Positions 5,589 to 18,569 of a stretch of 64,000 nucleotides of DNA are shown piece by piece. Each line of letters opens with the position of its first letter. Positions within the stretch are counted from its first letter, which is position 1. Location: assembly GCF_030690725.1 (NCBI RefSeq), contig NZ_JAUYGD010000036.1:1-64000 (forward strand), given 5' to 3'. Source of the stretch: Pseudomonas sp. GTDB taxonomy: Bacteria > Pseudomonadota > Gammaproteobacteria > Pseudomonadales > Pseudomonadaceae. Made by a program: the position numbers and the translations under genes. Under the pieces are notes generated by a model. That model was not told the origin of the DNA. It ran no database searches and was given only the letters and a program-made list of their open reading frames with translations.

Positions 5589-6611
5589 ATGTCCCGCATA
5601 GTGCGTTTCCATGAGTTTGGTGAGGCTGATGTCCTCAAGATCGAAGAGCGCCAAGCGCCTGCGCCGGCCGCAGGTGAAGTGCTGGTCGGTGTTGAAGCTG
5701 TGGGCGTCAGTTGGTACGACGTGCTCTGGCGGCAGAACCTGGCCAATACCCCGACGCAATTACCGGCAGGCCTGGGCCACGAACTGGCCGGCGTGGTACT
5801 GGCAGTCGGCGATGGCGTTACCGATCTGGCCGTGGGCGACAAAGTGGCCAGCTTCCCGGGGCACAGTGCCAATCGTTATCCCAGTTACGCCGAACAGGTG
5901 GTATTGCCGCGCAGTTCTCTGGCGCGTTACCCGGACAATCTGACCGCGCAACAGGCCGCCGTGCACTATCTGCCTTCGATGGTCGGCTGGTTCGGCTTTA
6001 GCGAGCTGGCCCGTTTGCAACCCGGCGAAACCGTGCTGGTAACCGCCGCAAGCCGCTGCTGGGGCCCGTATATCGTGCAGATGGGCAAAGCCCTGGGCGC
6101 CACAGTAATTGCCGCTACGGCCTTTGCCGAAGACAGCGACTTTCTCAAGCAGCTGGGCGCCGACTACATCATCCTTACCGAAGAGCAGGACTTGGTTAGC
6201 CGCGTCAGCAAGCTGACCGATGGCCGTGGCGTCAATGTGGTGATGGATGCACTCGGCGGTCCGCAGATGTGCCTGCTGGGCGACGCCATCGCGCCGCGCG
6301 GTCGATTGATCCTGTTCGACCTGCAAGGCGGCAATGAAACGCCATTCCCAGCCTGCGCGGCGTTCCAGAAGAACATCCAGTTCTTCGTGCATTGCATCGG
6401 TAATTTCACCGGCAAGGAAGAGCTGAACATTCCACAAGACCAGGCTGCAGTAGCCAAGGCCGTGCAAGCCATCAACCAACTGACGGCAGATGGTTTGCTC
6501 AAGCCGCTGATCGACAAGGTGTTCAGCTTCGACGATGTAGTTGAAGCGCATCGCTATATGGAAACCTGCCCAAGCCGTGGCCGCGTGCTGCTGGATCTCG
6601 GCGCGCGTTAA
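5589..6611 (+). CDS. mexS: MexS, zinc-less medium-chain dehydrogenase/quinone-oxidoreductase family protein
   Basis: NAD(P)H-dependent oxidoreductase of the MDR superfamily. In P. aeruginosa its loss switches on MexT and mexEF-oprN, so it is thought to remove an electrophilic or redox signal that activates MexT. The 340-residue protein opens MSRIVRFHEFGEADVLKIEE (GroES-like domain, about residues 1-125). A Rossmann domain follows, with the nucleotide-binding stretch ETVLVTAASRCWGPYIVQMG. Catalytic-zinc ligands are not apparent. An upstream in-frame ATG at 5565 exists, but ATG 5589 has GAAGAGG at 5576-5582 and matches the family start. The stop codon sits inside a dif-like sequence (6607-6634). 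Confidence 0.9.
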   Translation: MSRIVRFHEFGEADVLKIEERQAPAPAAGEVLVGVEAVGVSWYDVLWRQNLANTPTQLPAGLGHELAGVVLAVGDGVTDLAVGDKVASFPGHSANRYPSYAEQVVLPRSSLARYPDNLTAQQAAVHYLPSMVGWFGFSELARLQPGETVLVTAASRCWGPYIVQMGKALGATVIAATAFAEDSDFLKQLGADYIILTEEQDLVSRVSKLTDGRGVNVVMDALGGPQMCLLGDAIAPRGRLILFDLQGGNETPFPACAAFQKNIQFFVHCIGNFTGKEELNIPQDQAAVAKAVQAINQLTADGLLKPLIDKVFSFDDVVEAHRYMETCPSRGRVLLDLGAR

Positions 6612-6634
6612 ACATAACTCACATTATGCGAAGC
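6607..6634 (-). other. dif-like site, inverted relative to the main dif, overlapping the mexS stop codon
   Basis: Read on the minus strand, the 28 bp are XerC-type arm GCTTCGCATAA, centre TGTGAG and XerD-type arm TTATGTTTAAC. Against the site at 13416-13443 this is 11/11, 3/6 and 9/11, so 23 of 28 bases agree. It points the opposite way to that site. It may be an old phage end, a secondary Xer site or part of the fold-back attachment region just to its right. Confidence 0.6.
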
Positions 6635-6695
6635 CCGAATTAGGGCGAGAGCAGTGAATCCTGAGTGATCTGGGTTCACCGCTCGCAATATGGAA

Positions 6696-6787
6696 GTTCG
6701 TATAATTTACAGGCGTTACGTTCACATCGGCTCTGGATACTGGCAACGCCTCCAGGGCCGATTTAATGTAACGGCCATTATGCGAAC
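6696..6787. repeat. fold-back dif-like attachment region (CTXphi-style attP candidate)
   Basis: Two dif-like arms face each other. GTTCGTATAAT (6696-6706) pairs with ATTATGCGAAC (6777-6787) through one G-T wobble. GTTAC (6715-6719) pairs with GTAAC (6768-6772). An imperfect stem (6720-6737 with 6751-6767) closes on a 13-nt loop (6738-6750). The unpaired interior is 8 nt on one side and 4 nt on the other, where a dif centre would be. This is the plan of the attP hairpin that single-stranded CTXphi DNA forms to recombine with dif through XerC. It lies at the left end of the prophage; 6696-6720 would be attL. Confidence 0.6.
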
Positions 6788-7010
6788 GCCCCTCGACATC
6801 CCGCCTCACTTGATCAAACAAGCACAGCTCTACGCGCCCTCCAGGGATGCCCTGGACGCTGTTTGCCATGTGCTTTCTGACTACCCTCGACTTGTCGCTG
6901 ACGTTCGACAGATGCGTTCCAGGCTCGCCCAACTCGATGCCGAATCTTCGAGCATCGATGCTCTCGTTTCTGAGCTTCAGGGCGTCGCTCGCAAGATCTT
7001 GGATCTCTAG
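6780..7010 (+). CDS. small hypothetical phage protein with probable coiled-coil C-terminus
   Basis: Not recognised. From ATG 6780 it would be 76 residues: a short N-terminus (MRTPLDIPPHLIKQAQLYAP), a helix, then a heptad-like segment (VRQMRSRLAQLDAESSSIDA). The plan (small N-terminal unit, helix pair, coiled coil) resembles that of the next gene (7140-7394). No good ribosome-binding site precedes 6780, whose ATG lies inside the attP arm; an upstream ATG at 6690 is in frame but would cross the attachment region. The start is therefore uncertain and translation is not assured. Confidence 0.45.
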   Translation: MRTPLDIPPHLIKQAQLYAPSRDALDAVCHVLSDYPRLVADVRQMRSRLAQLDAESSSIDALVSELQGVARKILDL

Positions 7011-7011
7011 C

Positions 7012-7138
7012 GGTACCATATCGCTCAACCAGGTTGTTTTCCTGCAGGAGAAAATGGTACCAAAATGTCTTGACTGCCTCGGCCTTTTGGTACCATTATC
7101 AAGCCTGGGAACTTCACCAGGTGAACAGGAATGGTACC
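7012..7138. promoter_or_regulatory. four GGTACC palindromes around a sigma70-like promoter (operator array)
   Basis: GGTACC occurs at 7012-7017, 7056-7061, 7089-7094 and 7133-7138, with start-to-start spacings of 44, 33 and 44 bp, all multiples of 11. Between them is TTGACT (7070-7075), then 18 bp and CATTAT (7094-7099). One palindrome ends at this -10 and another lies over the ribosome-binding region of the following gene. The arrangement is what autorepression by a small DNA-binding protein would use; the binding itself is inferred. Confidence 0.55.
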
Positions 7139-7139
7139 T

Positions 7140-7394
7140 ATGCTTATCAAGTTTCAGGCTGACGACGAACTAGTTTCACGACTCAAGAAAGCTCTTGGTC
7201 AGAGCACTGGCAGCAAGGCCGTCGCCGAGGCTGCGACCACTTACCTTGACCAGCTGAATATGATCGCTCGGCTTGAGCGCGAGATAGGCACTCTTCGAGA
7301 GAGGTGCCGTGTTCAGCAGCAGGTCATAGACCGCGCTCGCGAATCTGCGTCTGCACTGCTTGACCATGTTGCCCAGGGCGACTTGCTTTCCTAG
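7140..7394 (+). CDS. small phage protein, probable ribbon-helix-helix DNA-binding regulator with coiled coil
   Basis: 84 residues from ATG 7140. The N-terminus MLIKFQADDELVSRLKKALG followed by TGSKAVAEAATTYLDQL looks like the strand-helix-turn-helix of ribbon-helix-helix proteins. The C-terminal half (IARLEREIGTLRERCRVQQQ) is strongly heptad-like. ATG 7131 is in frame but lies inside a GGTACC palindrome directly after AGGA; ATG 7140 keeps AGGA at 7127-7130 at a workable distance. The gene is flanked on both sides by GGTACC sites, suggesting it binds them. The fold is inferred from the pattern only. Confidence 0.6.
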   Translation: MLIKFQADDELVSRLKKALGQSTGSKAVAEAATTYLDQLNMIARLEREIGTLRERCRVQQQVIDRARESASALLDHVAQGDLLS

Positions 7395-7443
7395 GTACCG
7401 TTTCCGCCATCGATCGCGCTCCAGGGCGCGGCCTTTAGGTACC
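7394..7443. promoter_or_regulatory. second pair of GGTACC palindromes after the small regulator gene
   Basis: GGTACC at 7394-7399 (right after the preceding stop codon) and at 7438-7443, again exactly 44 bp apart. No convincing promoter lies between them. The repeat of the 44-bp spacing is the reason to regard them as sites for the same protein. Confidence 0.45.
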
Positions 7444-7759
7444 ATTTACCCCCTTCATTGATCAACCCGCTTTTCCGCATCGGCAGAGTCACGTCAGGTT
7501 CATTCGGTGGTGGGTCCCGGAGGTAAATCCCCTCAGGTACACACGCGACAGCAAATCGGCTCTTAGCGTGCCTCAGTGTTCGTCGTCATAGTCATTTGGG
7601 GTAGCGCTCTGCGCGAGGGGGAACCCCTGGCAAGCCGGCACGAATGTGCAGAGCGTTGCCGCAGTTGATTCCCTGGACGCGCAGCGGCCAGGGTCCACCA
7701 TCTCTAATGGTGGACTCTTGTCTCATGGTGAGACTTTTTGGCTTTCGTGGTGGGGCTTT
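7444..7759. other. phage non-coding region with clustered hairpins, probable origin/packaging region
   Basis: No convincing gene. Several stems follow one another. CGCTCTGC (7605-7612) pairs with GCAGAGCG (7648-7655) and encloses the stem AGGGG/CCCCT (7616-7628). CCCTGG/CCAGGG pair at 7671-7693, GTCCACCA/TGGTGGAC at 7693-7715, and GTCTCA/TGAGAC at 7720-7734 followed by TTTTT. Filamentous phages carry such stacked hairpins in the intergenic region that holds the plus and minus strand origins and the packaging signal. The nick site for the replication protein cannot be placed by eye. Confidence 0.55.
7720..7739 (+). terminator. rho-independent terminator in the phage non-coding region
   Basis: GTCTCA, loop TGG, TGAGAC, then TTTTT on the plus strand. 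It would stop rightward transcripts from the small regulator genes before the convergent gene at 7760-7969. Confidence 0.6.
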
Positions 7760-7969
7760 TCAAAGATCAAGCTTCAGCTCGCCTGACTCGCTTATTTCCA
7801 CGTAACCGACTGATTTCTCTAGTAAAAAATGCGCTAGCTCGCTGTCCCTGATGGGCTGGCGGCCTTGCTTTATCAGTAACTTATTGATTTCTATGCATTT
7901 TTTACGCAACAGCTCTTGCTCTGCGTTGGTCAATCTAAGCGTTGCTGGCATCGAGCCATCACCTTTCAT
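7760..7969 (-). CDS. small phage DNA-binding protein, probable repressor of the replication promoter
   Basis: 69 residues, starting at ATG 7969 with GGGAG upstream at a good distance. The sequence MPATLRLTNAEQELLRKKCI then RDSELAHFLLEKSVGYVEIS reads as an N-terminal strand followed by two helices, like a ribbon-helix-helix regulator. It is the only minus-strand gene of the prophage and diverges from the replication gene. The gap between them carries three GCATGCATG-type repeats over a strong promoter, so it is the likely immunity-type repressor. Role inferred from position and shape. Confidence 0.6.
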   Translation of the reverse strand: MKGDGSMPATLRLTNAEQELLRKKCIEINKLLIKQGRQPIRDSELAHFLLEKSVGYVEISESGELKLDL

Positions 7970-7993
7970 CGGTTATCTCCCAAAAAGTGTACG

Positions 7994-8074
7994 TGCATGC
8001 ATGTTACTTGTGTTGACGCATGCATGTGGACGCGTATACATTCCCGGCCAATGTTACTTGCATGCATGCATGCA
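7994..8074 (+). promoter_or_regulatory. phage replication promoter with GCATGCATG operator repeats
   Basis: TTGACG (8013-8018), 16 bp, TATACA (8035-8040) is a good sigma70 promoter for the replication gene. TGCATGCATG lies at 7994-8003 upstream, GCATGCATG at 8018-8026 in the spacer, and TGCATGCATGCATGCA at 8059-8074 in the leader. The 10-mer ATGTTACTTG is also repeated exactly 50 bp apart (8001-8010 and 8051-8060). A protein bound here would block both initiation and early elongation. Confidence 0.65.
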
Positions 8075-8094
8075 ATTGGTCAGGGAAGTCAAAA

Positions 8095-9372
8095 ATGCTC
8101 GACCGTCTTCACCTCTTCATTCCGTTCCGCGTGCCATGCGTTTCCCGCCTTGAGTCGGGTGATCCGCATTTCTACGTGGATTTGGAGAGCCTAGGCGTTC
8201 CGCTCCAGGGTCAGGTTAGTCGTGACGAAGACGGCCAATTGCAGGCTGATTACCTGCGTCACCCATGGGAATCGCTTTCTACTGGTTTTACGCCGATGGC
8301 GTTCAAGGTTTTCCATCAAACATTGGGTAAGCGCCTCGATCCTGGCGTTGAGCTGAAAGCCAGCCCTGCAAAGCTGCTCCAGGGTCATAACGTTTTTGGC
8401 CCTACCAGCATCCGTAGCGGGGCAGAGGTCATGCTCAAGTGGCTTGCCGGTAGCTATCCGAAGCTGTTCGCACTGCTCGATATCCGCGAAACAGTCGTTT
8501 ACGGCATGGACTGCACCTACAGCAGCCGTCTAGACGATGAGCGCACCGCCTACCAAGTCATTGACGCCCTGACCAACGTCAGCAACGGCCAGACCAAAAG
8601 CCGTGGCGACAACTACTCCAGCTCCGCCTATTTCGGTTCAAAACAGACCCGCCTCAAGCGCCTAAAGGCATACCTCAAGCATCTGGAATATCAGAACCAG
8701 CTTGAGGAATTGAAGCGGGCAGGGCGGGGCGACTTCGGTGCCCGTCGAGCGCTCAAAGTCATGTCTGATCCGCGGTTGATCGAGTGGACCAAGTACCTGC
8801 TCCGTATGGAAGCCACCGTGCTTCACCGCTGGATGAGTCGCCGGAATATCCCAACGAAATTGATTGACCTGTGTGCGTATCAGGAAGAGCTGGAAAGTCA
8901 GGGGCGCTGCCTCATTCAAGAGTGCTGGAAGGAAGTGACAAAGGACCTATTCGCGGCCTTTGGAGGTGTGGAAATGAAAGTGATTAATGACGACAAAGTG
9001 TACGAAGCGCTGCTCGAAAAATTCACCAAGCCCGGCAAGGGCCGCATGACTAAAGAGCGCATGGAAGCCGGTGTGCTCAAGCCCTCGATCTATGTCGAAG
9101 GCAAGCCTTCCACGTCTCATGCCAAGTCTATTTTCCGCACCTACCTGAGCATCAAAGACTACGGCTGGGAGTACACGAAAGAGCTAGGCAAGGCGACTTT
9201 CTACCGCCACGTCGCTGACCTCTGCGAAGTCGGCCTTTCGAAGGCTGCACTGCAAAAACTCAACGAACACGACCGCAAGTCGAACGTCGTACCGCTGCTT
9301 CGTTTTGTGAACGTCGATTTCGGCGCACAGCGCCCTGACTGGTACGTCGAACCGTGTGTGGAGGCCGCATGA
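8095..9372 (+). CDS. filamentous phage replication initiation protein (gpII / phage CRI-type)
   Basis: Rolling-circle replication protein that nicks the double-stranded phage DNA to start plus-strand synthesis. 425 residues from ATG 8095, with AGGGAA at 8082-8087 as ribosome-binding site; the reading frame is open further upstream, but that stretch is the operator and leader. Features typical of the family are the early segment DRLHLFIPF, SGDPHFYVDL, a central YGMDCTYSSRL region, and a C-terminal part (about residues 290-425) resembling the phage X/CRI replication module, with FRTYLSIKDYGW and AKATFYRHV-like text. Its stop overlaps the next start (ATGA). It is the first gene of the rightward phage transcript. 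Confidence 0.85.
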   Translation: MLDRLHLFIPFRVPCVSRLESGDPHFYVDLESLGVPLQGQVSRDEDGQLQADYLRHPWESLSTGFTPMAFKVFHQTLGKRLDPGVELKASPAKLLQGHNVFGPTSIRSGAEVMLKWLAGSYPKLFALLDIRETVVYGMDCTYSSRLDDERTAYQVIDALTNVSNGQTKSRGDNYSSSAYFGSKQTRLKRLKAYLKHLEYQNQLEELKRAGRGDFGARRALKVMSDPRLIEWTKYLLRMEATVLHRWMSRRNIPTKLIDLCAYQEELESQGRCLIQECWKEVTKDLFAAFGGVEMKVINDDKVYEALLEKFTKPGKGRMTKERMEAGVLKPSIYVEGKPSTSHAKSIFRTYLSIKDYGWEYTKELGKATFYRHVADLCEVGLSKAALQKLNEHDRKSNVVPLLRFVNVDFGAQRPDWYVEPCVEAA

Positions 9373-9509
9373 AACTTGAGTTCAAGAGCGGTCGCCCCAT
9401 GCCGCTTTCACACGTTTTCAAGTGGTCTCTTTCTCAGATTGGCATCCTGATTTTCTTCATCGGCCCTTTCTGTTTTATCGGCTACTTCCTTATCAAAAAC
9501 GCTTTTTAA
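9369..9509 (+). CDS. 46-residue phage membrane protein
   Basis: ATG 9369 overlaps the stop of the replication gene (ATGA). The peptide has a polar, basic N-terminus (MKLEFKSGRPMPLSHVFKWS) and one hydrophobic segment (about residues 21-42, IGILIFFIGPFCFIGYFLI), ending LIKNAF. Function unknown. Translational coupling to the replication gene and the uninterrupted frame support it as real; small membrane proteins are common at this position in filamentous phages. Confidence 0.65.
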   Translation: MKLEFKSGRPMPLSHVFKWSLSQIGILIFFIGPFCFIGYFLIKNAF

Positions 9510-9544
9510 CCGGGCATCAGCCCACCACCTAGAGGCAACTGAAA

Positions 9545-9901
9545 ATGGCAAATCCTGGAATCGTTCACGGCGTATTGGAAGGCATCAAAGAAACCCCTTA
9601 CGGTGGTGTTGAGCTTTCCCTGCAAGTGCAAGGTGCCGACCGTAAAGGTCGTCCAACTACCAGCTACGTCGATGCTCGTATTGACAAGTTTGAGGTCGAA
9701 AAAGGCCTCCACAACGCCTTCCGCCCTTACCTGGGCAAAGAGGTTTTTGTTCCCTGCCTTTTCGGCTTTTACCAGAAAGAAAAGGGCGCCACTGCCTACG
9801 ACCAAGTTGACGTTACCGGTGCTCCGCTTCGCCTCCAGGCTGCTGCGCCTGCACCCGCTGTTGCCTCTACTGGCCAGCCTTCTGTAGCCAAAACGGCTTA
9901 A
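9545..9901 (+). CDS. probable phage single-stranded DNA-binding protein (gpV-like)
   Basis: 118 residues. The first 95 look like a compact beta-rich domain (GGVELSLQVQGADRKGRP, YLGKEVFVPCLFGFYQKEKG), and the last 25 are Ala/Pro rich (LQAAAPAPAVAS), likely flexible. Its place directly after the replication gene is where filamentous phages encode the ssDNA-binding protein that coats new plus strands before packaging. Sequence similarity to Pf1 or Pf3 gpV is not evident by eye, so the assignment rests on position and composition. A good ribosome-binding site (AGAGG) precedes the ATG. Confidence 0.6.
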   Translation: MANPGIVHGVLEGIKETPYGGVELSLQVQGADRKGRPTTSYVDARIDKFEVEKGLHNAFRPYLGKEVFVPCLFGFYQKEKGATAYDQVDVTGAPLRLQAAAPAPAVASTGQPSVAKTA

Positions 9902-9916
9902 GGGGAGGGCGCTGCC

Positions 9917-10153
9917 ATGGTTACCGCCGAATTTCATCAAGAACGCCAGCGTCTGCTGTGCCTCATGAAGTCCGCCCCGGATCACTACGAGTTGGCATTT
10001 TCCAGCTCTGAACACGCTGGCTATCTGCGTGGCCTACGTGACTCCGGAGCCATCGGCGGCGCTGCCTACGAATTGCATCAAGCCGAAGCCGAGAAAGTTG
10101 CAGTCGTTGCTTTTGAACGCCTTGCCGCTCAACTCGATTCGGAGGCCGCTTAA
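9917..10153 (+). CDS. hypothetical phage protein, 78 residues
   Basis: Not recognised. Soluble, mainly helical and acidic (HQERQRLLCLMKSAPDHYEL, GYLRGLRDSGAIGGAAYEL, EAEKVAVVAFERLAAQLDSE). No membrane segment. Preceded by the strong ribosome-binding site GGGGAGGG (9902-9909), which is also a KOPS-type octamer. It lies between the probable ssDNA-binding protein and the small coat genes and ends at the start of the next ATG with no gap (TAAATG). Real gene likely; function unknown. Confidence 0.65.
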   Translation: MVTAEFHQERQRLLCLMKSAPDHYELAFSSSEHAGYLRGLRDSGAIGGAAYELHQAEAEKVAVVAFERLAAQLDSEAA

Positions 10154-10336
10154 ATGTTTGTTTGCTCTGAACTAGTCAATGGTGCCTGCACTACTTGGGT
10201 AGAGCAGAGCGTTTTAATTCCGCCTCTTAGTTTTTCTGAGGGGCTGAGTCTCGGCTGGAGTGTTTTGGCGTGTTACGCGACAGCCTGGGGTTGCAACTTA
10301 CTAATACGCTTTCTTTGGTCTCACATAGGTAATTGA
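10154..10336 (+). CDS. small phage membrane protein, 60 residues
   Basis: Starts directly after the preceding stop. It has one hydrophobic segment (about residues 31-53, LGWSVLACYATAWGCNLLI) and an N-terminal part with two Cys (MFVCSELVNGACTTWVEQSV). It is immediately upstream of the major coat gene, a position often held by a minor coat protein or assembly factor in filamentous phages. Specific role not assignable from the sequence. Confidence 0.6.
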   Translation: MFVCSELVNGACTTWVEQSVLIPPLSFSEGLSLGWSVLACYATAWGCNLLIRFLWSHIGN

Positions 10337-10338
10337 AA

Positions 10339-10467
10339 ATGGATACAACTGCAATCGAAGCCGGCATTACTGCACTCAAGGGCGACATCACCACTATTGG
10401 TGGCGCAATGTTCCTCGTTACCCTGGTGGTGGTTGCTTTTGCATACTTCCGCCGCTCGGCTCGTTAA
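10339..10467 (+). CDS. phage major coat protein (pVIII), Pf3-like, without leader peptide
   Basis: 42 residues. It has an acidic amphipathic N-terminus (MDTTAIEAGITALKGD), the motif GDITTIGGA, a hydrophobic segment (MFLVTLVVVAFAYF) and a basic tail (RRSAR). The acidic-hydrophobic-basic order is that of inovirus coat proteins. From memory, the Pf3 coat protein contains ADITTIGGA at the same point and is also made without a signal peptide. No signal sequence precedes the domain here, so direct insertion by YidC, as known for Pf3, is likely. A terminator follows directly, as expected for the most abundant phage transcript. Confidence 0.8.
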   Translation: MDTTAIEAGITALKGDITTIGGAMFLVTLVVVAFAYFRRSAR

Positions 10468-10483
10468 TTCGGCCTTGCAACAC

Positions 10484-10511
10484 AAGAGGGGGCTTATGCT
10501 CCCTCTTTTCT
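10484..10511 (+). terminator. terminator after the major coat gene
   Basis: AAGAGGGGGC, loop TTAT, GCTCCCTCTT (10484-10507, with G-T pairs), followed by a T-rich run. It separates the highly expressed coat gene from the adsorption and assembly genes, as in other filamentous phages. Confidence 0.8.
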
Positions 10512-10524
10512 TTTGGAGAGCATT

Positions 10525-10605
10525 ATGGGTATCGAGTGGGAGTATTCAGGATGGTTAATTTTCTTAGTTATTGTCTCTTCGGGCTTCTTTCTTTTTCGGT
10601 CTTAA
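10525..10605 (+). CDS. 26-residue membrane peptide overlapping the adsorption gene (pVII/pIX-like candidate)
   Basis: ATG 10525 follows GGAGAG (10515-10520) at an ideal spacing. The peptide starts MGIEWEYSGW, continues with one hydrophobic helix (LIFLVIVSSGFFLF) and ends RS. It overlaps the start of the adsorption protein in another frame (shared 10551-10605). Ff phages encode pVII and pIX, of similar size and shape, just before gene VIII and gene III. The good ribosome-binding site and phage context support translation; the role is inferred. Confidence 0.55.
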   Translation: MGIEWEYSGWLIFLVIVSSGFFLFRS

Positions 10606-11894
10606 CTGCTGAGGCCGCTAGGACAGTTATCGTTCAACCCGGCGAGCTACTCCCAACTTACGGCCCTGGTGTCGGCCCTGATGCTTTCATCGATTCGCGT
10701 GACTGGAATGCAACTATCAGCGATCAGAAGGGCACTCGCCATACCGTTCCTGTGGTTCGTGAAAAGAAATACTCATGGCCAAGTTTTCGCGGTGCTCTTA
10801 AAAACGCACTAAAGCTCAATCCAGGCCAGCTTCTTCTATCAGGCGCTGTAACCGGAGCAGTTGCCTCCGTTGGTTGGCTTATAGATGAAAACAGTCAAAT
10901 AACCCGAGTTGATAACAGCCCTGTTTCCTACACACCAACAGGCTCTAACATTCATTGGCTTCACGAGGGCGTGAAGTATCCCTCAGCTATAAGTGCTTGC
11001 CAGGGTCTTGCTAGCCGATTTGCTGCAAGTACTTGGGGTGCTTCCATCAACTCTGTATCTATCCACAGTCATCGGCCATATACCGATGTAAAGTGTGCCG
11101 TAAACTACAGCCAAGGCAGTTATCAAGAGACTTTTTATCCTACAATTTCAGCTTCCGGCACTACCTGCCCAACCGGTCTTTCGTTGGCTTCTAATACTCT
11201 CGCCTGTGTAAGTTCACAGGCTCTACCAATTACCGACTCTGATATCGACTCTTTTATTTCCGGTATCTCTGATCCTTCTTTTGCAGCTTCTTCCGCACCC
11301 TTTATCAATGATTCCGTCCCCGGTTCGTTTGACTATCCAGACTCAGAGACTTTCGGCGGCCCAAATTCTATAGATTTGCCGGGGTCTATAACGACAACCA
11401 CAAATCCAACTACCGGTGACACTACTGTCGTTGAGTCTTTGCCTTCAATTCAGCTTGAGTATGGTACTTCCCCGCTCTCTATTACTTCGACTCAAACCAC
11501 AGTAACCAATACATATCAGAATGGAACTCAGACAAGCACATCAGTTAGCACTGAAACCAACACATCCGTAGAAACGCCTGTTGCTGAAATTCCGACAGAT
11601 TGCGATTTTATGCCTACGGTCTGCTCTTTCATTGATTGGGTTAAGACTCCATTTAATGAGGAGGAGCCAGATTTATCAGAATTCATATCTGATGAAGATT
11701 TTGAGCGGGAAATAAACTTTTCTTCTAATGCCTCTTGCCCTGGGCCGTCCATGATCGCAACCAGTCGCGGCACTTATGAATTTTCATGGGAGCCCGCTTG
11801 CCAATGGGCTGGATTGGTTAAACCCCTGGTCATCATTGCTGCTCTTATTGCTGCGATTTTTATCAATCTTGGAATGGCCCGAGGTAATGAATAA
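10551..11894 (+). CDS. phage adsorption / minor coat protein (pIII-like)
   Basis: Tip protein for host-pilus binding, release and entry. From ATG 10551 it is 447 residues. It has a signal peptide (MVNFLSYCLFGLLSFSVLTA, cleavage about AEA-A), an extracellular N-terminal part, a Cys pair (TTCPTG..LAC), a long Ser/Thr-rich linker (about residues 290-350), and a further Cys-containing domain. One C-terminal membrane helix (LVKPLVIIAALIAAIFINLG) is followed by a short basic/polar tail. GGGAG at 10538-10542 supports this ATG; an in-frame GTG at 10536 is less likely. The coding region is noticeably richer in A/T than its chromosomal neighbours. Stop and next start overlap (TAATG). Confidence 0.8.
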   Translation: MVNFLSYCLFGLLSFSVLTAEAARTVIVQPGELLPTYGPGVGPDAFIDSRDWNATISDQKGTRHTVPVVREKKYSWPSFRGALKNALKLNPGQLLLSGAVTGAVASVGWLIDENSQITRVDNSPVSYTPTGSNIHWLHEGVKYPSAISACQGLASRFAASTWGASINSVSIHSHRPYTDVKCAVNYSQGSYQETFYPTISASGTTCPTGLSLASNTLACVSSQALPITDSDIDSFISGISDPSFAASSAPFINDSVPGSFDYPDSETFGGPNSIDLPGSITTTTNPTTGDTTVVESLPSIQLEYGTSPLSITSTQTTVTNTYQNGTQTSTSVSTETNTSVETPVAEIPTDCDFMPTVCSFIDWVKTPFNEEEPDLSEFISDEDFEREINFSSNASCPGPSMIATSRGTYEFSWEPACQWAGLVKPLVIIAALIAAIFINLGMARGNE

Positions 11895-12175
11895 TGCCAG
11901 CTATCCTTGTCACTATCGGCATCTACATAATTTCCAGTGTCATCGCTAAAGTATTCGTTGCCTTGGGCATAGGTCTTTTGAGTTATTACGGCCTTTATGA
12001 ACTTGTTCAGCAGTTGCTCGGTCAAGTTCAAGGGCTAATTTCGAGCCTGCCACCTCAGGTTTTCCAGATTATCAGCCTTGGTGGAATTCCTCAGGCTATG
12101 TCAATCATTGGCAGTGCCGTTTTAACTCGCGCTGCTATTAAATCCGTCGAAGTGTTTTTCGGTGTTCGCTCATGA
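11894..12175 (+). CDS. phage minor coat protein pVI-like (DUF2523-type)
   Basis: 93 residues and very hydrophobic. It has two or three membrane helices (ILVTIGIYIISSVIAKVF, ALGIGLLSYYGLYELV and ISLGGIPQAMSIIGSAVL) and ends in a short basic/polar tail. Proteins of this size and pattern lie between the adsorption protein and Zot in Pseudomonas, Vibrio and Xanthomonas filamentous phages and are regarded as the pVI analogue that caps the virion with pIII. Overlaps both neighbours by a few bases. Confidence 0.75.
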   Translation: MPAILVTIGIYIISSVIAKVFVALGIGLLSYYGLYELVQQLLGQVQGLISSLPPQVFQIISLGGIPQAMSIIGSAVLTRAAIKSVEVFFGVRS

Positions 12176-13200
12176 TTACGATAATTACCGCCGTCCCTGG
12201 TAGCGGCAAAACGCTTTATTGCATCGGCCTTATCGTCAAGGCGATTGAGCAGGGTAGGCCCGTTTATTCAAATATCGACGGCTTGCAAGTTCCCAAGTGT
12301 CATCCGGCTCCAGATGATTGGCGCGACACTCCAGAAGGCTCCCTGGTCATCTACGATGAAGCCCAGCAGCCTCATTTGTATCCATCGACCGCCCATCGTG
12401 GCGAAGTTAAAGATGATCGTTTGCGGCAGATGGAAGTCCATCGCCATACTGGTCACGACCTTATTTTTGTTAGCCAATCTCAAAGCTTTCTCCATCACCA
12501 CATAAGAAAGCTCGCCGGTGAGCACATCCATTTTTACCGGGCGTTCGGTTCCAAAACCGTCACCAAGTACACCTGGCAGCATTGCGTTGATTCTCCTAAT
12601 GATCGTGCTGAACAGGCGAGGGCAGATGCCTTTCCTTGGAAGTTTCCGAAGGAACATTACGGCCTGTATAAGTCCGCCACTATCCACACCCACAAGTTCA
12701 AATTGCCCAAGAAGCTCGCCGCCCTGGTTGCTTTTATTTTCGTCGTTGCTGGTCTTACGGCTTACAACGCCGCCACTAGCAAAGACAGCTATCTTTTTGC
12801 TTCTGGTGAGCAGGCATCAGATGAGCCGCCTGTCGAATCATCGCCGTTCAAAGCAGCCGCATCGGCGCTGGGTGGTGTCGGCTCCGCCGCCACCACCAGC
12901 CCGATCCGGCCAGCGTCCACGGCCATTTACGACTGGGCCGACACTGAGCCTGTAACGCCCATTGCTGGTTGCATCAGCTCTAAGACTAAGTGCCAGTGTT
13001 TTAACGAGGCAGGTGCAGCCCTCAAGCTCTCGCATGCCATGTGCCTTTCTGCAATCATCAACCCCTTGCCTAGGTCGATTATTGTCGGAACACGTGGAGG
13101 CTCGAAAAATGGGAATGCTGGACAGGGATTGGTACAAGGAACACCACCGGCAACAGCAGCAACAAACGCACAGCAACCGCAGCCGGCAAACGTTCTCTAG
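12172..13200 (+). CDS. zot: Zot / pI-like phage assembly ATPase
   Basis: Inner-membrane morphogenesis ATPase that extrudes the virion; 342 residues. Walker A is TAVPGSGKT at residues 7-15, and Walker B/E is SLVIYDEAQ near residue 60. The sensor-like segment HRHTGHDLIFVSQS follows, then a membrane helix at about 182-199 (KLAALVAFIFVVAGLTAY). The C-terminal periplasmic part has the GCISSKTKCQCFNEAG Cys pattern common in Pseudomonas Zot proteins. Start overlaps the preceding stop (ATGA). The name Zot reflects family membership with the Vibrio protein; toxin activity is not implied. Confidence 0.88.
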   Translation: MITIITAVPGSGKTLYCIGLIVKAIEQGRPVYSNIDGLQVPKCHPAPDDWRDTPEGSLVIYDEAQQPHLYPSTAHRGEVKDDRLRQMEVHRHTGHDLIFVSQSQSFLHHHIRKLAGEHIHFYRAFGSKTVTKYTWQHCVDSPNDRAEQARADAFPWKFPKEHYGLYKSATIHTHKFKLPKKLAALVAFIFVVAGLTAYNAATSKDSYLFASGEQASDEPPVESSPFKAAASALGGVGSAATTSPIRPASTAIYDWADTEPVTPIAGCISSKTKCQCFNEAGAALKLSHAMCLSAIINPLPRSIIVGTRGGSKNGNAGQGLVQGTPPATAATNAQQPQPANVL

Positions 13201-13345
13201 GCCTGCCGTGATCATTCGTTCGAGGTTTGCCCCTGGCTTCGCCCTGGGGCTGTTGGTTGGCGCGATAGTGATAACGACTTACTTCGTTTTAATGCCTGAT
13301 GCTTTCAGGGCGCTCTATATTCGATTTTGGGCGTTTTTCGGCTAA
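13109..13345 (+). CDS. small basic phage membrane protein after zot
   Basis: 78 residues from ATG 13109, with GGAGG at 13096-13100. It overlaps the end of zot in another frame by 92 bases. A Gln/His/Arg-rich N-terminus (MGMLDRDWYKEHHRQQQQQ) is followed by one membrane helix (APGFALGLLVGAIVITTYFV) and a short tail. It may supply the pXI-like function that Ff phages obtain by internal initiation in gene I. Last phage gene before the dif junction. Confidence 0.6.
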   Translation: MGMLDRDWYKEHHRQQQQQTHSNRSRQTFSRPAVIIRSRFAPGFALGLLVGAIVITTYFVLMPDAFRALYIRFWAFFG

Positions 13346-13415
13346 ACCCACTGCGTGATACCAGATCGCGCAGATCGCAAAGCACAGCGCCTTTCTGGCG
13401 CCTTCCTGACTAGAG

Positions 13416-13443
13416 GCTTCGCATAATGTATATTATGTTAAAT
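13416..13443 (+). other. dif: chromosome dimer resolution site dif (also prophage attR)
   Basis: 28 bp: XerC arm GCTTCGCATAA, centre TGTATA, XerD arm TTATGTTAAAT. The 23-bp core from GCATAA to the end is identical to the E. coli dif core as remembered, and very close to published pseudomonad dif. XerC and XerD cut here to resolve chromosome dimers, activated by FtsK. It marks the replication terminus. The filamentous prophage ends at its XerC side. The 164-bp gap 13346-13509 holds only this site. Confidence 0.92.
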
Positions 13444-13509: not shown

Positions 13510-14133
13510 TCAGTCACGATCCAGCAAATGAAAACTGGGCAACGCCACATGCCAGCGAATAGCGGCCAGACGAATCAGCAACACGGTGAGCATGGCCACG
13601 CCTGTATCCAGCCAATGTGGCGTGTCCAGCGCGCGCATGCCGATAAACACCACTGCGCCGGCTATGCAGGCGGTGGCGTAAATTTCCTTCTGGAAGATCA
13701 GCGGGATCTCGTTGCAGATCACATCGCGCATCACGCCGCCGGCAACTCCGGTCATCACGCCCATGATTACCGCCGTGCTGTGCGGCACGTTGTGTTGCAT
13801 GGCGACCTCGGTGCCGATCACGGTAAACACGGCTAGGCCGAAGGCATCCGCCAATAGCAGGCCTTTCTCATGAATTGGCTGGGTCAGCCGCACCCAGATC
13901 ACCGTGCCGACTGCCGCCAGCGAGGCCACGACGATATACAGATCGTTGCGAATCCAGCTGACCGGATGGTTGTCCAGAATCACGTCACGCAGCGTGCCGC
14001 CGCCCAATGCGGTGACGATGGCAATTACCAGCACGCCGAACAGGTCCATGGACTTGCGCCCGGCCATCAGCGCGCCCGTGATGGCGAATACCGCGACGCC
14101 GAACAGGTCGGCCAGATAGAACAGTTGCGCCAT
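13510..14133 (-). CDS. TRIC-family (YadS/UPF0126-type) membrane protein
   Basis: 207 residues with about seven membrane helices in two repeats. Each repeat carries the glycine-arginine motif of trimeric intracellular cation channels: GGGTLRDVILDNHP in the first and AGGVMRDVICNEIP in the second. Bacterial members form cation or amino-acid-related channels; the substrate here is unknown. The ATG at 14131-14133 has GAGG upstream. A longer in-frame start at 14211 would run into the end of gor and lacks hydrophobic family sequence, so the shorter form is chosen. It lies 7 bp downstream of gor on the same strand, probably cotranscribed. Confidence 0.85.
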   Translation of the reverse strand: MAQLFYLADLFGVAVFAITGALMAGRKSMDLFGVLVIAIVTALGGGTLRDVILDNHPVSWIRNDLYIVVASLAAVGTVIWVRLTQPIHEKGLLLADAFGLAVFTVIGTEVAMQHNVPHSTAVIMGVMTGVAGGVMRDVICNEIPLIFQKEIYATACIAGAVVFIGMRALDTPHWLDTGVAMLTVLLIRLAAIRWHVALPSFHLLDRD

Positions 14134-14140
14134 GCTGACC

Positions 14141-15499
14141 TCAGGACGACACAGGAGTACGCATGGTGACGAACTCTTCGGCGGCCGTTGGGTGCACACC
14201 GATGGTTTCATCGAATAGTTGCTTGGTCGCGCCGGCTTTAAGCGCCACGGCCAATCCCTGCACGATTTCTCCAGCGTCCGGGCCGACCATATGGCAACCC
14301 AGCACGCGGTCTGTGGCAGCGTCCACCACCAGTTTCATCAGGGTGCGTTCCTGGCTTTCGGTCATGGTCAGTTTCATCGGCCGGAAGCGGCTTTCGAATA
14401 TCTGAACGTTGTAGCCCTCCTCCTTCGCCTGCTCTTCACTGAGCCCGACCGTGCCGATATTCGGCAGGCTGAACACTGCCGTCGGGATCATCCGATAGTC
14501 GACTTTGCGGTATTGCTCTGGCTTGAACAGGCGCCTGGCCACGGCCATGCCTTCAGCCAGCGCAACGGGCGTCAGCTGCACGCGGCCGATCACATCACCA
14601 ATCGCTAGGATTGACGGCGTGCTGGTCTGATACTGCTCATCGACTTTGATAAAGCCACGCTCATCAAGCTGTACGTGGGTGTTTTCCAGGCCCAGGTTAT
14701 CCAACATCGGCCGGCGCCCGGTGGCGTAGAAGATACAGTCGGCCGCAAGCATGCGACCATCCTTGAGGGTAGCTAGCAGGCTGCCATCGGCCTGTTTGTC
14801 GATGCGGGCGATATCGCTGTTGAATTGCAAATCCACGCCGCGCTTGCTCAATTCTTCCCGCAGGTGTCGGCGCACCGCGCCATCAAAGCCGCGTAGGAAC
14901 AGCTCGCCGCGGTACAGCAGCGAGGTCTTTGCCCCCATACCGTTAAAGATTGAGGCGAATTCCACGGCGATATAACCGCCACCCACCACGAGCACCCGCT
15001 TGGGCAGCTGCTCAAGGAAGAAGACTTCGTTCGAGCCGATGGCATGTTCATGCCCGGGAATTTCAGGAATCTGCGGCCAGCCGCCAGTGGCGATCAGGAT
15101 GTGCTTGGCACTGTAGCGTTTACCGCCCAGCTCAACGCTGTGTTCGTCAACAATCCGCGCGTGGCCTTCCAGCAAGGTCACCCCGCTGCCCACCAGCAGG
15201 TTGCGGTAGATGCCGTTGAGTCGCTCGATTTCACGATTCTTGTTGCTGATCAGGGTCGACCAATCGAAGCTGGCCTCGCCCAGCGACCAGCCGAAGCCCT
15301 GCGCCTGCTCGAAGTCGTCGGCGAAGTGCGCGCCGTAGACCAGCAGCTTCTTCGGTACGCAACCCACGTTGACGCAGGTGCCGCCGAGGTAGCGGCTTTC
15401 GGCAACCGCCACACGGGCACCGTAACCAGCGGCAAAGCGCGCAGCCCGAACACCGCCGGAACCGGCGCCGATCACAAACAGGTCGAAGTCGTAGGTCAT
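14141..15499 (-). CDS. gor: glutathione reductase
   Basis: FAD enzyme that reduces oxidised glutathione with NADPH in the cytoplasm. 452 residues. FAD-binding [12 protein letters not shown] is at the N-terminus, and the redox disulfide C42-x4-C47 lies in [13 protein letters not shown]. The NADPH-binding [17 protein letters not shown] is in the middle, and the C-terminal catalytic HPTAAEE is present. Length and motifs are complete. It is followed on the same strand by the TRIC-family gene and divergent from the VOC protein gene. Confidence 0.95.
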
Positions 15500-18482: not shown

Positions 18483-18569
18483 TGGTGCCCGAAGCCGGGG
18501 TCGAACCGGCACGAGGTTACCCTCGAGGGATTTTAAGTCCCTTGCGTCTACCGATTTCGCCATTCGGGC
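18483..18569 (-). tRNA. tRNA-Leu (anticodon TAA)
   Basis: 87 nt including an encoded CCA. Class II tRNA with a long variable arm (CTCGAGGGTAACCTCG). Acceptor GCCCGAA pairs with TTCGGGC. The anticodon stem-loop GGACTTAAAATCC gives TAA, and the T loop GGTTCGACCCC is intact. Confidence 0.95.

Follow-up and report, generated by a model that had tools for sequence, protein, structure and literature searches.

In the CTXphi-type IMEX of Vibrio cholerae, and in CUS-1 and Ypf, an inovirus carries a pair of dif-like sites in inverted orientation, separated by about 90 nt (PMC3089051, PMC5357621). The two sites, attP1 and attP2, are left on one side of the integrated element with a complete dif on the other, and tandem arrays occur. 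In CTXphi El Tor the centres of the two sites are described as 12 and 7 nt long, and their XerD arms as TTATGTTGAGG and TTATGTTACGG (PMC3089051). The VGJphi- and TLCphi-type IMEX likewise use host XerCD at dif, but their dif-like sites are described as recombining without an attP1/attP2 fold (PMC5357621). The Pf phages of Pseudomonas are reported to use an integrase of their own (PMC7549136, PMC7307601, PMC4863604): Pf1 and Pf4 (Primolicivirus) are also Pseudomonas filamentous prophages, but encode tyrosine integrases for tRNA, tmRNA and direct-repeat sites (PMC7549136). Among the titles and beginnings of abstracts listed in searches of the open-licence literature, we found no description of a dif-integrated or hairpin-attP inovirus in Pseudomonas.

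Here we compare with these systems a locus from a Pseudomonas sp. The window, meaning the whole stretch of DNA analysed, is 64,000 nucleotides long (assembly GCF_030690725.1, contig NZ_JAUYGD010000036.1). We conclude with considerable confidence that positions 6696-6787 are the left end of a filamentous prophage located at dif, and likely its folded single-stranded Xer attachment site, of the CTXphi type. Judged from sequence, this is a CTXphi-type attP in a genus whose well-studied filamentous phages carry their own integrase. The features of the locus are as follows, where L007 is a related phage contig from IMG/VR and attP1 is given in the 11-6-11 notation of PMC3089051.

5565-6611: left neighbour, an oxidoreductase gene
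6607-6632 (- strand), 6761-6786 (- strand) and 13418-13443 (+ strand): dif-like sites in the host assembly, at most 3 mismatches
6695..6705, + strand: attP1 XerC arm (AGTTCGTATAA), one base off the right-end arm and off L007
6696..6787, + strand: predicted attP hairpin, comprising inverted attP1 and attP2, upper stem and apical loop (DNA fold z -5.68; conserved, covarying)
6706..13426, + strand: inovirus prophage, 6721 bases between two predicted XerC cuts (arm positions, spacing, gene content)
6706-6715, + strand: attP1 centre, 10 nt (sequence)
6716-6726, + strand: attP1 XerD-like arm, TTACGTTCACA (sequence)
6761..6788, - strand: attP2, with XerC arm 6788-6778, 6-bp centre 6777-6772 and XerD arm 6771-6761 (pattern matches)
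6780..7010, + strand: ORF1, 76 aa, phrog_13909, start codon within the attP2 XerC arm
7131..7394, + strand: small gene, phrog_8031 (PHROGs match)
7760..7969, - strand: small gene, phrog_5642 (PHROGs match)
8020..9372, + strand: gene II/X-type replication protein (PF05144, PF05155, TIGR01629)
10339..10467, + strand: 42-aa small membrane protein, likely the major coat protein (translation)
10536..11894, + strand: likely adsorption (gene III-type) protein (weak TspB match, PF05616)
11894..12175, + strand: DUF2523 minor coat-type protein (Pfam, PHROGs)
12172..13200, + strand: Zot/gpI-type morphogenesis protein, an ATPase (PF05707, phrog_197)
13416..13443, + strand: chromosomal dif at the right end, with XerC arm as in L007, centre TGTATA and XerD arm TTATGTTAAAT (exact match)
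13510-14211, - strand: right neighbour, a glycine-transporter-type gene (PF03458)

Folding with DNA parameters gave the + strand of 6690-6795 a ΔG of -26.2 kcal/mol, compared with a mean of -12.5 (sd 2.41) for 200 shuffles, none of which was as stable (z -5.68). The sequence at 6696-6787 is as the preliminary description gave it, and the fold pairs the oppositely oriented dif-like arms that it had recognised: the predicted outer stem joins 6696-6706 to 6777-6787 with a single T-G wobble at 6701/6782. A second predicted stem, with one bulged base, joins 6712-6722 to 6765-6776, and is followed by a small interior loop of 3 + 2 nt and an upper stem at 6726-6737/6751-6762. The unpaired centre of 8 + 4 nt proposed earlier does not appear in the optimal fold, where the centre has 5 unpaired nt on the 5′ strand and none on the 3′ strand. 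The proposed 13-nt loop (6738-6750) is present but contains a predicted 3-bp stem. Similarly, the 3′ arm is where it had been placed but is more than an arm: 6761-6788 has all the parts of a dif-like site on the minus strand, with 2 mismatches in the 10 positions of its XerD arm. The + strand is thus predicted to fold with the XerC and XerD arms paired around an unpaired centre.

The arm pair spans 90 nt and represents two inverted dif-like sites. On the minus strand, attP2 reads CGTTCGCATAA / TGGCCG / TTACATTAAAT in the 11-6-11 notation, while the XerD arm of attP1 is poor, with 8 mismatches in 10 at a 6-bp spacing. The resemblance to the CTXphi attP that had been suggested extends to the longer centre of attP1 (10 versus 6 nt here, 12 versus 7 nt in CTXphi El Tor according to PMC3089051), and the XerD arms CTTATGTTGAG and CTATGTTACGC of some relatives are close to the two CTXphi arms given in that paper. 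The attP1 centre opens with TG, like dif, in 26 of 30 distinct hairpins; that of the window opens with TT (TTT, agreeing with the TGT of dif at two of three places). At the corresponding place in the attP2 centre, 12 of the 30 have G. Unlike CTXphi, the element has a Pseudomonas host, a gene II/X-type Rep, a conserved apical loop and an ORF1 start within the XerC arm; the P. aeruginosa branch has in addition an extra side arm, and no toxin genes were seen.

All the phage genes lie on the + strand except 7760-7969, and the hairpin is on the + strand too. Further small genes lie between the replication gene and that of the 42-aa protein. Inoviruses package the coding strand. The 42-aa protein is one that we take to be a Pf3-like major coat protein. 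The ATTATGCGA in the attP2 XerC arm provides the ATG of ORF1, which begins Met-Arg; the attachment site therefore doubles as a gene start, and a 76-78 aa protein starts from the XerC-arm ATG at 20 of 34 hairpin loci. A search of the phage genes against Pfam and PHROGs found no recombinase. The host genome has nine matches to PF00589 (Phage_integrase), none of them on the window contig, and its XerC (L117) and XerD (L116) score above the NCBIfam cut-offs. The Pf1/Pf4-type features, a tyrosine integrase and a tRNA, tmRNA or direct-repeat attB, were not found, and the closest tRNA prediction, at 18483, falls beyond the phage. We note that the host has an integron integrase as well, on a short contig (L118, G000:C63:1-1500); its TIGR02249 score is 498.6 bits, where the cut-off is 265.

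The hairpin lies inside the inovirus at 6706-13426, which looks complete and has its other end at the host dif, so that the earlier placement of the hairpin at the left end of a filamentous prophage is borne out. The right end meets an exact dif, TTCGCATAAT GTATAT TATGTTAAAT, at 13418-13443. In the 4.67-Mb, 92-contig host assembly only three sites are within three mismatches of dif, all of them in the window, and a close variant of the dif pattern had no matches in window shuffles. On the right, dif has an intact centre and XerD arm, attP1 and attP2 are kept on the left, and the ends are at XerC arms. The left XerC arm of the window is TTCGTATAA, in comparison with TTCGCATAA in the right arm and in L007; the left arm is therefore most simply the host half of dif.

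L007 provides a view of the junction in a phage record. Its sequence matches window 13344-13427 (85.7% over 84 nt) and runs via TTCGCATAAT directly into the hairpin, inside the contig. Its Rep is 98% identical to that of the window in the best segment, and its structural genes gave no blastn match to the window. At the seam between its end and start, 21 nt beyond align with the window, and a search for an open frame across the seam found none. In a phage that is circular or in tandem, the hairpin would be expected to adjoin the right end in this way; circularity is less sure, resting on the 21 aligned nt. The preliminary description had pointed to such a junction as a check, and had noted that a plain double-stranded dif-like site elsewhere would speak against the hairpin; the junctions fall at the XerC arm of attP1. 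Other phage records also have the arm pair internally, namely L006 and L016, with terminal repeats of 127 and 100 bases, and L024, which was deposited as circular.

The third dif-like site, 6607-6632, is inverted and lies directly 3′ of the oxidoreductase stop codon, with a perfect XerC arm and two mismatches in the XerD arm. The sister species G014 has alignable but more degraded sequence at this position. We considered 6607-6632 as the native dif, and rejected this because the dif of G012 is oriented as 13418 and not as 6607. It was also rejected as the attP2 of an older phage, being without an upstream partner arm and inside an intact gene.

We then surveyed related elements. Among 22 relatives (L005-L026), 16 pass the threshold applied for an inverted arm pair, which spans 86-113 nt; of the others, L012, L013 and L018 start within the hairpin, L017 has a single arm at the threshold, and L014 and L019 have none. 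All of 18 related hairpins are predicted to be stable, in line with the result for the window, with z between -3.9 and -10.5 and no shuffle as good out of 100 for each. These 18 form alignment A1, which includes L017 (9 nt short) and L026 (an Acinetobacter phage), but not L012, L013 and L018. Alignment A2 consists of the 11 without an extra side arm, which is a feature of the P. aeruginosa-type branch (L009, L011, L017, L023, L025, L156, L157, L158), whose longer hairpin has it between the XerD stem and the upper stem. In A2, 93.8% of stem cells are paired, compared with 33-42% when the partner strand is slid, and in 12 of 31 pairs both partners have changed, a number that 1 of 500 shuffles attains (shuffle mean 8.0). 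The covariation score is 0.391 against 0.183 (0/500 shuffles), and RNAalifold recovers the same stems, with 13 double-changed pairs out of 33. The number of further pair types is not unusual, being reached by 102 of 500 shuffles (n = 11) and by 113 of 500. For the XerC and XerD stems alone, A1 (n = 18) has 87.1% pairing and eight double-changed pairs; sliding by -1 also gives eight, but with only 41.6% pairing. The stem covariation is comparative evidence that selection preserves the folded attP, where the CTXphi case rests on experiments.

In 17 of the 18 hairpins, or 17 of 20 when those of the P. aeruginosa prophages 36-2 and 17897 are added, the + strand is predicted to have the higher stability of the two strands; in L017 (9 nt short in the 18), 36-2 and 17897 the - strand is favoured by 0.1-0.4 kcal/mol. 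G-T outnumbers A-C by 35 to 3 in the + strand structure, an excess that is partly built in because the structure was predicted from that strand, and the two are equal (8 to 8) in the structure predicted from the - strand.

A covariance model, R1, was built from A2 and used to search 398 Pseudomonas species genomes at E ≤ 0.001. It matches 19 of them (about 5%), of which 16 are outside the model-building set; the window, G014 and G145 match by construction because R1 was built from A2. A strict pattern found only 1 of 298 genomes of the genus, and a search for Rep relatives in genome contigs gave none. All 19 hairpin genomes have exactly one dif by the pattern used. In each of the 17 with hairpin and dif on one contig (they are on separate contigs in G387 and G178), the hairpin is on the strand of dif and on its XerC side, at a distance of 1.5-19.5 kb, which in 10 of the 17 is 6.2-8.3 kb, that is, one phage length. 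The largest distance, 19.5 kb in G192 (C1:2822222-2841695), exceeds one phage length and suggests that other units or other dif-integrated elements lie between.

The window holds a single copy; tandem arrays occur in G014, G200, G221, G041 and G332, and also in L011, L015 and L020. In all five of the genome arrays an internal attP1 and the right dif are preceded by one and the same 100-nt sequence, while the left flank is unrelated (28-37%) in the four compared. Left flanks for the junction comparison came from 16 of the 19 genomes; that of G347 equals its right flank over 25 nt, and this match probably comes from an internal unit. In G200 the XerC arms at the left, internal and right positions are TACGCATAA, TGCGCATAA and TGCGCATAA, and in G041 they are TTCGCGTAA, TTCGCATAA and TTCGCATAA, which places the crossover after the XerC arm. 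The left arm is thus unlike the phage arm in three cases, the window, G200 and G041. The host left flank of G192 is contiguous with dif centre, XerD arm and right flank in eight genomes (G020, G004, G031, G019, G010, G036, G022 and G047; about 45-59 bases at 81-96% identity), none of which is among the 19. Taken together, the arrays, the differences between host and phage XerC arms and the phage-free dif indicate that the crossover is at the XerC cut.

No exact phage-free copy of the window locus was found: G014 is occupied and the left flank of G012 differs. G014 shares both window flanks at about 83% identity, and its array of one 3,883-base unit and two 7,020-base units ends at dif. The shortened unit (L069 1600-5483), which heads the array with a hairpin of its own, could be a copy that has undergone deletion, or else a satellite-like element. 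G012 gave no match to R1, and has dif in the same orientation about 1.1 kb downstream of a homologue (65% identity) of the same flanking gene.

Based on these observations, we propose that folding of the (+) single-stranded genome would bring attP1 and attP2 together as a paired XerCD substrate, and that a single strand would be exchanged between this folded attP and dif, at the position of the XerC cut. By analogy with CTXphi we infer catalysis by XerC alone on a single-stranded intermediate: XerC would make the cut, and host replication or repair would complete the junction. Again as in CTXphi, a lone integrated copy would not be removable by simple reversal, and tandem arrays would be the main source of new phage genomes. 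This would be a second way for filamentous phages to enter the Pseudomonas chromosome, at dif and without a recombinase of their own, and about 5% of the sampled species genomes (19/398) have the hairpin.

The strongest competitor to folding is that double-stranded circular phage DNA integrates by ordinary XerCD recombination at attP1 or attP2, as in VGJphi or TLCphi, with the hairpin incidental. Double-stranded IMEX of such type are described (PMC5357621), and attP2, taken as a duplex, fits the dif pattern well, with 2 mismatches over the 26 specified positions (N6 centre). Recombination at attP2 would, however, give the opposite of what is seen: the junctions examined are at attP1 and attP2 is retained inside, and we therefore reject double-stranded use of attP2. 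Unlike in VGJphi and TLCphi, the Pseudomonas junction belongs to the attP1 of a folded pair, and with a 10-nt centre and 8 of 10 mismatches in the XerD arm at 6-bp spacing attP1 is a poor duplex site. Moreover, compensatory change holds the pairing of attP1 with attP2, for which a duplex site has no need. We therefore regard this explanation as unlikely.

Even less probable, in our view, is that the hairpin serves in termination, replication, packaging or the control of ORF1 translation, and that its location at the junction is secondary. The upper stem and a GGANAAT-like apical motif do extend past the coverage expected of XerCD, and ORF1 begins within the XerC arm in those members that have it; but the XerC arm of dif is matched by both arms, which in the genomes examined fall precisely on the prophage junction, and any such role could be added to attachment but would not substitute for it. 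As for chance or an assembly artefact, the extra inverted dif-like site adjoining the prophage and the 92 contigs of the host assembly could be held in its favour. The fold is nevertheless reached by none of 200 shuffles, and the element recurs in the genomes of 18 other species as well as in phage and metagenome records of independent origin; this recurrence, with the covariation of the stems, effectively refutes it. The folded single-stranded attP is thus the reading that we prefer. It may tentatively be extended: the hairpin could be a selected single-stranded DNA device of many gammaproteobacterial inoviruses with two jobs, the lower half being the Xer site and the upper stem, apical loop and XerC-arm gene start serving a second function, for example as a complementary-strand start or in control of ORF1.

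A hairpin attP had been put forward as an integration mode distinct for Pseudomonas. This agrees with the Pf papers, but the same hairpin is present in integrase-less P. aeruginosa prophages that were already deposited, without a mechanism in the available text of PMC10675462. The prophages 97-1, 42-1, 36-2 and 17897 are reported there as integrase-less members of groups 4-7, with repeats of 11-12 bp in intergenic regions, and it was suggested that groups 4-6 may use host-encoded integrases (PMC10675462). Neither dif as the site nor a hairpin is named for these prophages in the available text. We find the hairpin in all four and in phage WX_Y (5/5 records), integrase being absent. The Rep proteins of 97-1 and 42-1 belong to the same family as that of the window, at about 67% identity, and the XerC arm of 36-2 and 17897 ends GTTAT. 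The terminal repeats (TTCGCATAATG and TTCGCATAATGT) are 11 bases long in 97-1 and 12 in 42-1, 36-2 and 17897, and in all four cases this length equals TTCGCATAAT plus the next bases common to the phage (GA.. or GT..) and dif (GTATAT). We infer, from sequence and not from observed junctions because the records are without a right flank, that the four inserted at dif. The dif hairpin route is therefore a possible mechanism for the integrase-less P. aeruginosa prophages described in 2023.

The hairpin layout is likely to be wider than the genus Pseudomonas. The exact arm-pair pattern was found in 36 stretches of GTDB contigs, many of them from Moraxellaceae, Pasteurellaceae, Enterobacterales and Methylococcales, with dif within the fetched stretch at only four of the 36 loci. 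Inside the arms, the fold beats all 100 shuffles in 30 of the 36, although some are in unlikely hosts and are possibly chance (L150, L155). Seven stretches likely to be chance by their host group (L121, L128, L130, L134, L135, L150 and L155) were left out of a strand comparison; L155, left out, folds strongly, whereas L133, kept, folds weakly inside. The assumed sense strand was favoured in 15 of the 26 from other orders, with three ties and eight against, a mixed outcome with no clear strand bias, orientation having been assigned by ORF content, which is unreliable.

Finally, we note a feature of the apical loop. A GGANAAT-like motif on its 5′ side (about 6735-6741 in the window) occurs in 27 of 30 distinct Pseudomonas-type hairpins, using a loose pattern with no shuffle background, and similar A-rich apical loops can be seen by eye in other bacterial orders.
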